Source of the DNA: Treponema sp.
Lineage (GTDB): Bacteria > Spirochaetota > Spirochaetia > Treponematales > Breznakiellaceae
Length of the DNA: 45,059 nt
Assembly: GCA_031286205.1 (NCBI GenBank)
Contig: JAITUR010000121.1
Coordinates: 1 to 45,059 of the forward strand
Direction: 5' to 3'
This document shows, one piece after another, positions 996-5,620 of this stretch. The stretch's first letter is position 1, and each line of letters opens with the position of its first letter. The notes beneath the pieces are model-generated. The model worked only from the letters and a program-made list of their open reading frames with translations. It made no database searches and was not told where the DNA came from. The translations under genes and the position numbers were made by a program.

Positions 996-1175
996 GCACA
1001 TAACGTTCTAGGTAACTGACATTTTTTTGTGCCCGATAAGGAAAATACGAAGTATTTTACGGGCACAAAAAATGTGGTGGAGAGAAAATTGCACAAAGGC
1101 GTTTACGCCGACTGCGGTTTTTCGGAGCCCAAAATGCCCGAACAGGGTATTTTGCAGTTACCGTTTGTTAAGCGC
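996..1175 (-). repeat. attC-like recombination site 1 (repeat A, copy 1)
   Basis: A 180-bp element bounded by R''-like GCGCTTAAC (minus strand, 1175-1167) and R'-like GTTATGTGC (minus strand, 1004-996). Next inside are complementary L-type boxes: CAGTTACC (plus 1155-1162) and GGTAACTG (plus 1011-1018). The interior folds into three hairpins: 1023-1035 with 1060-1072 (perfect, with inner stem 1042-1048/1052-1058); 1086-1093 with 1113-1120; and 1130-1139 with 1145-1154. Imperfect pairs are G-T wobbles on the plus strand but A-C mismatches on the minus strand. The TAA stop of the 1158-1889 gene lies inside the L box. The layout is that of an integron attC site, though longer than most. The second copy is at 2139-2316. 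Confidence 0.7.
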
Positions 1176-1889
1176 AGTTCTATTCTTTTGCCATAATATC
1201 ATTTTTCCATTCTCAATTAATATTTTATTCATATAATTTAATAAATCATTATAATCATTTTCATTTTTAATTAATACAAAATTGGATTCTATTCTCCTAA
1301 TTTCATTTTCAGTCAAATAAGGTGAAACAATTCGTTTTGTATTTTCAAATTTATTGACTTTGCTTTCTATTGCAGTTTCAGTTGATAAAACCATTACTCC
1401 AACAAAAATATATATAAATAAAGCAATATAAAATATTAGTTTATCTCTAATAGAATATTTATTAATTTTAATTCTTTTTTGTTCCAATTCTTCCTTTTTA
1501 TAAATAATTTCTTTTTCAACTTCCTTTTTTTTAATTAATTTTTTATTATTTTTATCTACATTTTCTTTAGAACCATCTATCATTAATTTACTATTATATT
1601 CACCTATTATATTTAATAAATTATTAACTGATTTTTTATAATTTAAAAATATATAAATCAATATTATTATAGAAATATTAAATAAAAATAAATATATGAA
1701 TTTATCTATATTATAATTTCGTGTAGCTACTCTCTGATAAAGATAATTATTAAATTCTGTGAAATTTATTGAGGCATTAAAGATAATATCTCCAAAAACA
1801 CTTGCTAAAAACGGTATTAAATATGTAGCAATTAAAATAGAAATTACAGAAATGGTTATTGTTTCAATATTTTTCTTCTCAAAAATCAT
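1158..1889 (-). CDS. Cassette 1 membrane protein of unknown function
   Basis: This 243-aa protein begins MIFEKKNIETITISVISI. It has three likely membrane segments (about residues 10-37, 60-85 and 147-169). Between the second and third is a lysine/glutamate-rich cytoplasmic-type stretch (about 100-146) that may form a coiled coil. The ATG at 1889 has an AAGGA Shine-Dalgarno and a near-consensus promoter. The base composition is far more AT-rich than the V-ATPase genes nearby, which suggests acquisition. The C-terminus (RTALNKR) is encoded by the attC-like site: codons for ALNKR come from the R''-box region and the stop lies in the L box, as is common in integron cassettes. I do not recognise the family. 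Confidence 0.75.
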   Translation of the reverse strand: MIFEKKNIETITISVISILIATYLIPFLASVFGDIIFNASINFTEFNNYLYQRVATRNYNIDKFIYLFLFNISIIILIYIFLNYKKSVNNLLNIIGEYNSKLMIDGSKENVDKNNKKLIKKKEVEKEIIYKKEELEQKRIKINKYSIRDKLIFYIALFIYIFVGVMVLSTETAIESKVNKFENTKRIVSPYLTENEIRRIESNFVLIKNENDYNDLLNYMNKILIENGKMILWQKNRTALNKR

Positions 1890-1991
1890 ATTTTTCCTTA
1901 TATATAATTTATATCAAAATTTTCAAACAATGTCAATGATATTTTATATTGATTTTACCTTTTTAAAATGTTAAATAGAATTGCGCTTAAC
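1167..1991. repeat. Inverted termini bounding cassette 1
   Basis: Plus 1167-1184 and 1974-1991 are inverted copies matching at 17 of 18 positions, including the 9-bp core GTTAAGCGC / GCGCTTAAC. They delimit a unit of about 800 bp holding the promoter and gene of cassette 1. In integrons the first bases of a cassette derive from its own attC, so its two ends should match in exactly this way. Confidence 0.75.
1908..1936 (-). promoter_or_regulatory. Sigma-70-type promoter of cassette 1
   Basis: Minus strand: TTGACA (1931-1936), 17-bp spacer, TATAAA (1908-1913). The predicted start near 1901 leaves a short leader containing TAAGGA before the ATG at 1889. Confidence 0.7.
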
Positions 1992-2146
1992 TCGTTTATA
2001 TATGAAAACGGAAATAAATAGCAGAAAATAAAATAAGTAGTGGAAAAAAACCAATGGCGGCTTACGAAGTCCAACCGCAACAGCAAAGCTGTAAGGCTGG
2101 ATTTCGTAAACCGCTGCGATAGGCGGCGTTTTAATGCCGCTTATCG
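1983..2146 (-). repeat. Repeat B, copy 1: ORF-less hairpin unit inside a compound attC-like site
   Basis: A 164-bp unit running on the minus strand from CGATAAGCGGC (2146-2136) to GTTAAGCGC (1991-1983). It contains one hairpin with arms GCCGCTTATCG / CGATAGGCGGC around an AT-rich loop. It also contains a roughly 20-bp imperfect stem (GCGGCTTACGAAGTCCA on plus, pairing near 2095-2115) with a smaller AGC/GCT stem in its loop. Both fold better on the plus strand. A second copy lies at 3025-3164. GATAAGC at its 5' end may be a degenerate R' box (GTTAAGC with one changed base). Translation through it gives an open frame (1971-2237) that I regard as a by-product. Confidence 0.75.
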
Positions 2147-2316
2147 TTCTAGGTAAGTGAAGGTTTTTTGTGCCCGATAAGAAAAATACGAAGTATTTTA
2201 CGGGCACAAAAAATATGGCGGAGAGAAAATCCCACAAAGGGCGTTAGCCCGACTGGGATTTTTCGTAGCCCAAAATGCCCGAACAGGGTATTTTGCAGTT
2301 ACCGTTTGTTATGTGC
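2139..2316 (-). repeat. attC-like recombination site 2 (repeat A, copy 2)
   Basis: This is the second copy of repeat A, highly similar to 996-1175. R''-like GCACATAAC is on the minus strand at 2316-2308. The L-type boxes are CAGTTACC (plus 2296-2303) and GGTAAGTG (2152-2159, one mismatch). The hairpin with GTGCCCG/CGGGCAC arms and an AAATCCCA/TGGGATTT stem are conserved by sequence or by compensating pairs. Its distal core box has decayed to GATAAGC; the next intact R'-like box (GTTAAGCGC) appears only after repeat B. The functional site may therefore be the compound 1983-2316. Confidence 0.7.
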
Positions 2317-2337
2317 TGGTTTTGTTTATTCAATATT

Positions 2338-2943
2338 TCATTTTGAAACTTTAAAATATTGAATAACTCCACACATTCCAATATATATAAGTAAAATAAT
2401 CCAATAAAATATTGATGGTTTAAAATACATACCAAATATTGTATAAATAATTACTATAAATACAATATTTAATATTGTACCAACAAAAAACATATTTCTC
2501 AAAATACTGAAAGATATTTTGAGAAATGGCATAATTATCAATGCAATAGGAATAATTAATAATATGAAAATAACAACACTTAAATTAATTCCTATTTGAT
2601 TATTTTCATATATATCCAATAAAATATCATTTAATGTTACATCTTTCTCTTTAATTTGAATTAAATCAATTTCATTTGATTCAACTTCTGTAGTATTTTC
2701 GATGATTTCTAAATTATCTATTTCAGAATATTCAATTTCTGTATTTTCAAGTATTTTCTTTAATTCGTCATCAATTAATTCTTTTTCTTTAACAATTAAA
2801 GTCTTAAACCTAATTGTAGAAATTTGCCAACCAGAAAGAGCTATATTACTATTATTTGTATATTGGATAACAGGTAACATAAAGAAAAATATGCATAATA
2901 GAAATGCCACAACACCAATAATTCCTTTTTTTGTTTCTTCCAT
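2338..2943 (-). CDS. Cassette 2 four-helix membrane protein of unknown function
   Basis: The protein is 201 aa from the ATG at 2943 (MEETKKGIIGVVAF). I chose this start because GGAG lies 9 nt upstream at 2953-2956; an upstream TTG would overlap that SD. Four membrane segments are visible: about residues 6-27, then three clustered in the C-terminal half. Between the first and second is an acidic outer or inner loop rich in Glu, Asp, Ile and Asn. The gene is very AT-rich. It ends before the R''-like box of attC-like site 2. The topology (one helix, soluble acidic domain, three helices) resembles many small toxin, immunity or phage-defence membrane proteins, but no family is recognised and I assign no function. 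Confidence 0.72.
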   Translation of the reverse strand: MEETKKGIIGVVAFLLCIFFFMLPVIQYTNNSNIALSGWQISTIRFKTLIVKEKELIDDELKKILENTEIEYSEIDNLEIIENTTEVESNEIDLIQIKEKDVTLNDILLDIYENNQIGINLSVVIFILLIIPIALIIMPFLKISFSILRNMFFVGTILNIVFIVIIYTIFGMYFKPSIFYWIILLIYIGMCGVIQYFKVSK

Positions 2944-2965
2944 AATTTGCAACTCCTATATTTTT

Positions 2966-2994
2966 ATTATACATTATTCCATTTTATTTGTCAA
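2966..2994 (-). promoter_or_regulatory. Consensus sigma-70 promoter of cassette 2
   Basis: Minus strand: TTGACA (2989-2994), exactly 17 bp, TATAAT (2966-2971), a perfect match to both hexamers. The predicted start near 2959 leaves a leader of about 16 nt carrying GGAG. Confidence 0.85.
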
Positions 2995-3024
2995 GCAATA
3001 TTCCCCAAATATTTTGCAAAACTT

Positions 3025-3164
3025 GCACATAACATTTATATATGAAAATAAAAAAAGTAGTAAAAAAACCAATGGCGGTTTACGAAGTCCAACTGCAACA
3101 GCAAAGCTGTAAGATTGGATTTCGTAAACCGCTGCGATAGGCGGCGTTTTAATGCCGCTTATCG
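3025..3164 (-). repeat. Repeat B, copy 2
   Basis: This repeats the unit at 1983-2146, from GCACATAAC (plus 3025-3033) to GCCGCTTATCG (3154-3164). The large GCGGTTTACGAAGTCCA stem is better paired here than in copy 1. Here it is not attached to a repeat A: the cassette side is intact and the distal side runs into a different hairpin at 3171-3204. It marks the chromosomal-side end of the array in this window. Confidence 0.75.
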
Positions 3165-3170
3165 TGCTTG

Positions 3171-3676: not shown

Positions 3677-5620
3677 TTATTTATTTTTTTCCGCAAATGG
3701 TTTATAGGCTATCCCTGACCAGGACAAACCTATATGCGATGAAAATTCCAAAATATTAAGACGCACTCCATGAACAAGAACCGATAAAACATTAAGTATA
3801 AGGTTAAGCCCATGTCCAAAAACCAAAAGTATAATTCCTATAAAAATCAGGAAATTACCCAGCATAGGACCAGCCATTGTATTTACCGTATTTGCTATAG
3901 AAGCTCCTGCAAGTCCAACTGCCCATAATCTTATATATGACATAACATCTGAAAAAATATTCGCTATTCCAAGAACAACAGAAATAAAATTTTTGCAGCT
4001 GTTTAAGATAGACATTCCAATACTACCCTCGTAAGAAGCAAATACAAAATTTAATATAAAACCGCCGCCCATAATGTACAGCGAAACCGGTAATAGCGGT
4101 ATTTGTCTTGCATCATTGCTTACAATAAGCCACAATACAACATTAAACATACCCCAAATCATTCCCAAAGAGCCTATTTCAGAAAGAAATTTTAAAGATT
4201 TTAATCTTATACAGCTAAAGAGACACCTTACATGGGCAATTGTCAACTGCAAAAGACCAAGACTAAAACAGAAAATTAACAGGTTTTGGTCTACAATGGC
4301 GCTATCTCTTTTAGCTGTAGAAATATAAGAAAGCGAAATATCTCTTGGAACTTGCGGCAATAAGTCTAGCTCAACTCCAAACCACGAACAAGTAGCAATA
4401 CCCCAGGCTGTATTACAAATTCCCAGCAAAAAAAGCATTTGTAATGGTACCGGCACGCCTTTCTTTGCAGTTTTTATAATTCCAAAAACTGCGGCAAGGG
4501 TAAGAATAAGCCCGTACGCTGCATCTCCAAATATCATTCCAAAGTAAATACAGAAGAAAATAAGAAACCATGCGGAAATATCAACTTCCCTATACCCCGG
4601 AGTAATTCCTAAAAAATCTGTTATCGGATTTAGCAGATTTACAAATTTACTGTTTTTTAATTTAGTGGGGACTTTTTCATCATCTTCCGCAGGATCAACA
4701 GCAGAAAGAGCCCAGCCATTATCTACGGCTGTTGCCCTAAGCTCGGACATATCTTCTGCGGGAACATAACCTGTTAAATAACAAAGCCCCAGATTTTCGG
4801 GTATTTCTTCGACTTTCTCCACAACAGCCGCGGCGCTTTCAAACTCATAAGCCATTGTAGCCAGGATCATTTCTTTTTTTAGCGCGGACATTCTGCTTAC
4901 AAGATTATTTAGTTTAGCATTTAACTCTTCCAGTTCCAGTTTAATTTCGTCAATTTCACGGCGCATTGCTGAAATGGATTTTTCCGGTAATATTACAGGT
5001 GTTGAATTTTCGAGCTCCTTTCCAAAAACAATAATTCTAACTTTATTTTTTTCAGAAGCTTTTATAATATACTCAACTTCCTTGTCTAATCTATTAAAGG
5101 CATCAAGTGTTAGTTCGTATAAATAAACAGGCTGACCTAAACCGGCAATTTCTTTTACGGCTGCGGGATCAAAGTCGCCCCAGTTTTCTATGCGTATTAT
5201 TTCCTTTTTAAGGTGGAACATACGATCTTCCAGCGATTTTCGCTCCCTTCCAATATTTACAATATAGTCCGGTAATTCCATACGGGATGCAGCATTAACC
5301 GCTTCCAGCGAGTATGGTTCCTGTTCCTCTGTTCCGTATATATCTGTAGAACGCCTGCCGCGGCGTAGCCCTGCACCGGATACACGCGGTGCATTAACTG
5401 CAGAAACCGGGGAAGATTTTTTCCTTTTTTTATATGTTTCAGATAATAATCCAATAGCGCTTTCTACTTTATTTTTTTGTTCGGCAGATTTTGCAACACT
5501 TTCCGGAGAAGCTCTTTTTTCTATATGCAATACACCTGCTTCGCGCAATTTCAATAAAGCGTTATTTTGAGAATGTTCTTGTACCACAAGGCACACTTTT
5601 TTCATTGGTAAAATTGCCAT
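3677..5620 (-). CDS. atpI: V-type ATPase subunit I (membrane stator, a-subunit type)
   Basis: The protein is 647 aa and starts MAILPMKKVCLVVQEHSQNN. The N-terminal half (to about residue 340) is soluble and rich in charged, heptad-like helices. The C-terminal half has seven to eight membrane segments starting near FLIFFCIYFGMIFGDAAYG, including LFGxxxGDxxYG-like and SYIRLWAVGLAG motifs typical of the 116-kDa/subunit I family. It forms the stator half-channel next to the K ring and links it to the peripheral stalk. The ATG overlaps the atpD stop by one base (TAATG), so the pair is translationally coupled. Residues 60-115 hold a basic, low-complexity insertion (PRVSGAGLRRGRRSTD). Confidence 0.95.
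   Translation of the reverse strand: MAILPMKKVCLVVQEHSQNNALLKLREAGVLHIEKRASPESVAKSAEQKNKVESAIGLLSETYKKRKKSSPVSAVNAPRVSGAGLRRGRRSTDIYGTEEQEPYSLEAVNAASRMELPDYIVNIGRERKSLEDRMFHLKKEIIRIENWGDFDPAAVKEIAGLGQPVYLYELTLDAFNRLDKEVEYIIKASEKNKVRIIVFGKELENSTPVILPEKSISAMRREIDEIKLELEELNAKLNNLVSRMSALKKEMILATMAYEFESAAAVVEKVEEIPENLGLCYLTGYVPAEDMSELRATAVDNGWALSAVDPAEDDEKVPTKLKNSKFVNLLNPITDFLGITPGYREVDISAWFLIFFCIYFGMIFGDAAYGLILTLAAVFGIIKTAKKGVPVPLQMLFLLGICNTAWGIATCSWFGVELDLLPQVPRDISLSYISTAKRDSAIVDQNLLIFCFSLGLLQLTIAHVRCLFSCIRLKSLKFLSEIGSLGMIWGMFNVVLWLIVSNDARQIPLLPVSLYIMGGGFILNFVFASYEGSIGMSILNSCKNFISVVLGIANIFSDVMSYIRLWAVGLAGASIANTVNTMAGPMLGNFLIFIGIILLVFGHGLNLILNVLSVLVHGVRLNILEFSSHIGLSWSGIAYKPFAEKNK

Follow-up and report, generated by a model that had tools for sequence, protein, structure and literature searches.

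Near the start of a 45,059-nucleotide stretch of a Treponema sp. genome (GenBank assembly GCA_031286205.1, contig JAITUR010000121.1; this whole stretch, contig C7:1-45059, is the window), two genes on the minus strand are each followed by a long hairpin-forming repeat, much as the gene cassettes of an integron are followed by their attC recombination sites. The genome is a 126-contig draft of ~2.3 Mb (94% complete) and one of a set of metagenome-assembled genomes (MAGs) that we take to come from termite guts. The window contains two copies of repeat A (992-1175 and 2133-2316, 87% identity) and two of repeat B (2044-2150 and 3062-3168, 95% identity). The boxes that bound each unit pair exactly: GTTAAGCGC at 1167-1175 with GCGCTTAAC at 1983-1991 in cassette 1, and GTTATGTGC at 2308-2316 with GCACATAAC at 3025-3033 in cassette 2. 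In the direction of the genes, both units read gene, then attC, the same order as in known integrons, and a script located the starts of cassettes 1 and 2 at 822 and 723 bp, respectively, before the attC AAC. On sequence grounds, there is good support for reading 996-3033 as two genuine minus-strand cassettes, each with a long attC-like site that folds, of a gene-capture system resembling integrons (Table 1).

Table 1. Predicted features of the cassette run in the window.
Feature	Position	Strand	Remarks
attC-like site A1, 180 bp	996..1175	-	repeat comparison, folding, covariation
A1 R'' box GCGCTTAAC	minus strand of 1167-1175	-	
A1 R' box GTTATGTGC	minus strand of 996-1004	-	
A1 L arms GGTAACTG/CAGTTACC; three inner hairpins	within 996..1175	-	
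Predicted cassette 1	1004..1990	-	begins past the G of GTTAAGCGC at 1991; single gene; A1 at its end
Cassette 1 gene, 243 aa	1158..1889	-	no Pfam match over cut-off
attC-like site A2, 178 bp	2139..2316	-	degenerate R' (GAT for GTT), one L-arm mismatch
Predicted cassette 2	2145..3032	-	begins past the G of GTTATGTGC at 3033; A2 at its end
Cassette 2 gene, 204 aa	2338..2952	-	no Pfam match over cut-off
Repeat B copy 1	1992..2144	-	two hairpins and palindrome-like end (CGTTT...AAACG, by eye), directly before cassette 1 GTT start
Repeat B copy 2	3034..3168	-	directly before cassette 2 start; attC-free

A first-pass annotation of this DNA had described the two copies of repeat A with their paired boxes, and had seen that each cassette begins with the complement of the R'' box of its own site; both observations stand. 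Its GTTRRRY-like cores at the outer ends were recovered as well, except at the second site, where the core is GATAAGC. The site that it had measured at about 330 bp is in fact the 178-bp attC-like site A2 plus the separate repeat B, which occurs without an attC before cassette 2. GAT in place of GTT is found in some R' cores (2143-2145 in the window; ~4354-4362 in locus L119). No recombinase matched on contig C7, which begins at position 1, so that nothing is readable to the left; to the right of the cassettes lie genes with V/A-type ATPase domains. The window run is a CALIN-type element, that is, a cluster of attC sites lacking an integron integrase on its contig.

A1 folds much better than its shuffled versions on both strands (z = -5.0 and -5.3; 0/200 shuffles as good), and its predicted fold consists of R and L stems bearing inner hairpins; in A2, the R/L stem is absent from the prediction and the inner hairpins are well formed (z = -5.6). 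Thirty-seven sites of the genus (g1) to which the window genome belongs, drawn from 47 full-length profile matches, were aligned: 27 of 32 consensus pairs carry changes on both sides, and 93.0% of the cells at paired columns are paired, versus 40-46% when the partners are slid. This covariation points to selection on the base pairing of the sites. The R boxes fall outside the covariation consensus, as expected, because in arrays the right-hand half of an R box belongs to the next cassette. Sites of the genus are mostly 150-180 bp long, with profile matches up to 226 bp. Seeking unbroken L stems only, we found one of at least 6 bp in 78 of 100 sites and none in 22. The unpaired central spacer is longer on the R' side in 77 of the 78 stem-forming sites (often 3-4 versus 6-7 nt), a figure for these sites alone. 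As in integrons, then, the repeated sites form an R/L stem when one strand folds on itself, A2 being a degenerate case in which the stem is absent.

If the units are cassettes that move by way of a circle, a register should be visible: what follows GTT at the start of a cassette should be complementary to what precedes AAC in that cassette's own site. Across 14 adjacent pairs in the genus, 85 of 112 positions match, whereas re-paired sets average 65.8 and the highest of 10,000 shuffles reaches 83 (p ~1e-4); the window's own pair, which the script compared with the second site's degenerate core, received 5/8. Among arrays of named relatives, introduced below, 36 pairs in 11 arrays match at 216 of 288 positions, with 139 expected (p ~1e-4). 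The box pairing is beyond chance, and the cassettes show both a GTT boundary and a start complementary to their own R'' box, which are features of integrons.

The first-pass annotation had expected an IntI-type integrase. The IntI model TIGR02249 gave no match over its cut-off in the window genome or elsewhere among the 36 g1 genomes searched; as these are drafts in many contigs, absence is not absolute. Elsewhere in the order, 10 of the 23 non-g1 genomes have a true IntI. What the genus has instead is a tyrosine recombinase whose match to TIGR02249 splits at positions ~180-232 and stays under the cut-off. In 22 of 22 g1 proteins, its GKG and H.LRH motifs stand 66-72 residues apart, compared with 107-108 in 10 of 10 IntI and 70-75 in three of three Xer-type proteins, and in an alignment with IntI4, chain residues 174-240 (67 residues) stand opposite 25 residues of the query. 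Judged from its sequence, the g1 recombinase is without the ~41-residue IntI-specific (I2) domain around patch III. The columns of R, K, H, R, H and Y, which we take to be the catalytic ones, are invariant in 12/12 and 44/44 aligned proteins. The best NCBIfam model is NF040815, with 213-232 bits in four proteins against a cut-off of 220.

This recombinase and the attC-like sites partly coincide in the genus. Running the site profile on 23 g1 recombinase loci (L082-L103 and L109) placed attC sites 0.7-1.7 kb from the recombinase in 11, and gave no match in five loci of other genera. By our own estimate, chance would yield about one such locus within 2 kb, given the window genome's density of 22 sites per 2.3 Mb. 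In nine of the 11, the site lies downstream and the cassettes run in the direction of the recombinase gene.

A scan with 12 g1 recombinase proteins, from which the best 80 loci were kept, extended the comparison to four Treponema MAGs, Brucepastera parasyntrophica, another spirochaete, Paenibacillaceae, many Bacteroidota, archaea, Patescibacteria and others. GKG to H.LRH spacing was 64-67 residues in the 38 of these 80 proteins that were measurable by pattern. Where at least 5 kb was available on both sides (29 loci), spaced direct repeats were found downstream of the recombinase in 18 and upstream in seven, and repeat ends follow the form NAAC...CGTTN in most of 12 aligned loci, L158 being a misfit. 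The clearest case of an array with an I2-less recombinase is Brucepastera parasyntrophica, whose chromosome (titled complete genome) holds 30 of its 33 attC matches on one strand within 42 kb (1528721-1570576). The recombinase gene lies at 1572853-1573656 on the same strand with the array directly downstream, and no IntI scored over cut-off in this genome. Of 21 cassettes in which the register could be tested, 17 are perfect, three match at 5/6 and one at 4/6, compared with 23 perfect matches among 420 non-cognate pairs, and in all 21 the longest open reading frame points in the recombinase's direction. Ten cassette proteins were scanned: they returned Fic/DOC, NERD, GNAT, PALP, DUF4238 and DUF4365, together with one GmrSD_N match under the cut-off, and three were matchless.

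When the register test was run automatically on all 80 loci, 50 of 79 adjacent downstream pairs were perfect (6/6). Upstream, the best of 16 pairs reached 4/6, and among 461 non-adjacent pairs 11 were perfect. We let a locus pass if at least one pair matched at 5 or 6 of 6 positions, a level that 48 of the 461 non-adjacent pairs also reach. Downstream sequence was too short to judge in 33 loci; of the 47 testable, 19 pass (17 of them with a 6/6 pair) and 28 have no passing array (nine archaea, nine Patescibacteria, eight Bacteroidota, one Nitrospirae MAG, and L124, the same g1 contig as L100). The passing loci fall in Spirochaetota, Bacteroidota and Paenibacillaceae, so that arrays accompany the recombinase in three phyla: Spirochaetota, Bacillota and Bacteroidota. 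None of the 16 candidate-array genomes searched, which cover 15 of the 19 register-passing loci and also L187, has an IntI over cut-off.

These comparisons bear on a simpler account of repeat A, namely that it is a dispersed hairpin family resembling miniature inverted-repeat transposable elements or repetitive extragenic palindromes, with an incidental cassette pattern. Repeat A does have 22 matches on 14 contigs of the window genome, many near contig ends, its hairpins are strong, and short hairpin pieces of repeat B are scattered too. The six bases at the repeat ends, however, vary with the cassette and match its own site, and the spaced repeats of the named loci are direct, with inverted pairs in one of the 29 loci downstream and in none upstream. 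We give this account almost no credence; it is already disfavoured because of the register test. The first-pass annotation would have abandoned the cassette reading if the genome had no IntI-like gene and the repeats were dispersed with ends off the GTT core; we found no IntI over the cut-off and dispersed repeats, yet the repeat ends coincide with the core. A search of 59 genomes, 36 of them from g1, gave matches to repeat A in 25, every one a g1 genome. A ~28-bp hairpin of repeat B (2118-2145 and 3136-3163) is present too on contigs C70, C78 and C68 (L031, L032 and L033).

If the recombinase builds these arrays, an attI site should lie beside its gene. Using nothing but a first cassette's site, we predicted where that cassette should begin and sought this point between the recombinase stop codon and the first attC. 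The predicted point was present in 10 of 11 named and six of seven testable g1 loci (16/18), two further g1 loci having no recognisable left end and standing outside the test; starts predicted from later cassettes, which served as the control, were present in one of 37. In nine loci from three phyla the point lies 43-148 bp past the stop, and several of these nine are preceded, by eye, by a palindrome of ~18-20 bp. An attI-like point next to the recombinase with the first cassette joined to it, as in an integron, is what these 16 of 18 loci of relatives contain. The end of repeat B resembles the attI palindrome by eye, as do points before cassettes on contigs C118 and C23. Repeat B is possibly a secondary attI-like site, and we tentatively suggest that such secondary insertion sites, including the points on C118 and C23, would account for the scatter of cassettes. 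The putative attI beside the window genome's own recombinase (L109 ~615-635) reads GAT, not GTT.

The window run could alternatively be a leftover of an ordinary IntI integron whose integrase was lost or missed by assembly, with the I2-less recombinase a bystander. Such remnants exist, as Treponema phagedenis is described, in a passage of one report, as retaining attC sites without intI (PMC3607928), and a fragmented draft, a contig without an integrase and the true IntI of neighbouring genera all leave room for one here. But no g1 genome and no candidate-array genome searched has an IntI over the cut-off, attI-like starts sit just past the recombinase gene in nine loci, and the pairing with arrays recurs in three phyla. 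We therefore regard a leftover as unlikely.

The tree of the recombinases speaks to their relationship with both IntI and Xer proteins. The 10 IntI, sampled from the same order only, form one clade (100/100) with the array-bearing recombinases outside it; the drawn root is the midpoint, beside three long-branched Xer-type proteins. All but one of the 24 array-bearing recombinases fall in one group (support 82/78), together with five whose loci have no passing array and five unlabelled proteins, and the array label requires seven changes on the tree. A recombinase on Acinetobacter plasmids is ~52% identical to a Flavobacterium one and is labelled TnpF in one record. The XerA-like profile score, and three further recombinases of the window genome that group as Xer, would suit a scheme in which the host XerC/XerD recombine the folded sites in the manner of CTXphi while the neighbouring recombinase merely resolves or regulates. 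Against this, the arrays start at the recombinase gene and extend one way from it, and no passing array was found at the nine archaeal and nine Patescibacteria loci with enough downstream sequence; we hold an Xer-driven scheme to be very improbable.

We conclude, with a probability of about 84%, that the window run belongs to an integron-like system with a recombinase akin to IntI but missing the domain that defines IntI. The cassette-array interpretation offered at first pass is borne out by site structure, register and comparison across species. Several observations weigh against our conclusion. The cassettes of g1 are scattered over many contigs. No attC lies nearby in 12 of the 23 g1 recombinase loci; some of these stop at a contig end within 1 kb, but L082, L087, L089 and L095 continue without an array, and in the window genome itself, where the recombinase sits on contig C89 (L109), the contig continues for only ~700 bp past the gene and shows no attC there. 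Two of the 11 attC-bearing loci, L094 and L100, have the site on the gene's other side. The predicted attI point was missing from L096 and from L155 (the locus in which one control start turned up), and in seven of the 16 successes the point is 424-3116 bp from the stop, perhaps with nearer sites going unrecognised. Among the named loci, the eight Bacteroidota without a passing array had enough downstream sequence, L187 fails the register test (0/2 pairs), and L152 and L164 pass only at the 5/6 level shared by non-adjacent pairs. Lastly, L175 lies outside the main array group, whose support is itself only 82/78.

Three smaller observations concern these loci. The recombinase of L082 is apparently followed, by eye, by tRNA genes. 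A TTCTCCG tandem repeat lies at ~115-205 of L109, near the contig start beyond the window genome's recombinase. The cassettes of g1 (G024, G000 and others) include mid-contig places, as against the single array of Brucepastera.

In the mechanism that we propose, the window run would be an integrase-less cassette cluster derived from the integron-like system of g1. Each cassette would comprise a gene and a site that folds as single-stranded DNA into an R/L-box stem with inner hairpins. The likely enzyme is the IntI/XerA-type tyrosine recombinase without I2, which would cut next to GTT and excise the cassette as a circle, the R'' and R' boxes pairing. Insertion would then occur at the attI downstream of the recombinase's own gene, which in several loci would take the form of the ~18-20 bp palindrome, a few bases and GTT, or at another attC; in the window genome, insertion at secondary attI-like sites such as repeat B may perhaps have produced the scatter. 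The reaction, its single-stranded substrate and this recombinase as the enzyme are all three what we infer from the arrangement of sites and genes.

We further consider it likely that Spirochaetota, Bacteroidota and Paenibacillaceae harbour, in these arrays, a second class of integrons that is widespread. The integrase of this class would be related to IntI, perhaps as its sister, and would either have lost I2 or have done without it from the start; it would identify a folded attC by its asymmetric central loop, not by extrahelical bases, and it would be a living representative of the hypothesised pre-I2 ancestor. According to part of one paper, the R''-L'' arm of a canonical attC site bears two or three extrahelical bases (PMC2727003). 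Sites with an unbroken L stem, the only kind of stem we sought, would suit a recombinase that lacks I2. I2 is called, in the relevant passage of PMC9668308 (citing Messier and Roy 2001), a defining feature of integron integrases and necessary for integron recombination, and Escudero et al. suggest, in a passage of PMC4792948, that gain of an I2-like domain enabled an ancestor to act on new single-stranded substrates. According to a portion of the IntegronFinder 2.0 paper, one complete integron was found in Firmicutes and one in Bacteroidetes apart from Chlorobi and Ignavibacteriae (PMC9024848). If our proposal is right, arrays led by I2-less recombinases show the domain to be dispensable for cassette systems, the origin of integrons becomes testable with living enzymes, the range of cassette systems in Bacteroidota and Bacillota is extended, and new cassette genes and recombinases would follow.

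Among known systems, integron-like tyrosine recombinases were grouped by Smyshlyaev et al. 2021, where the insertion is called essential for integron function and where, in the part of the text concerned, no cassette arrays are mentioned for members without it (PMC8138268). The sedentary chromosomal integrons of Treponema, of the T. denticola type, differ from ours in that the recombinase here has no IntI additional domain, in that the genus sites mostly measure 150-180 bp and hold inner hairpins, and in that the R-box complement often reaches GTT plus six bases; they are alike in that the true IntI of the order share a similar-looking N-terminal extension with the I2-less g1 recombinases. CALIN elements such as that of T. 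phagedenis resemble the window run in being cassette clusters with no integrase on the contig, but the clusters of relatives are attached to a recombinase, one that intI-based tools would be expected not to score as IntI. The XerA/Xer-type proteins, covered by NF040815 under the name 'site-specific tyrosine recombinase/integron integrase', have the same fold and likewise no I2 insertion. Xer proteins are known for acting at one dif site on the chromosome, whereas the recombinases described here lead cassette arrays with attI-like sites.
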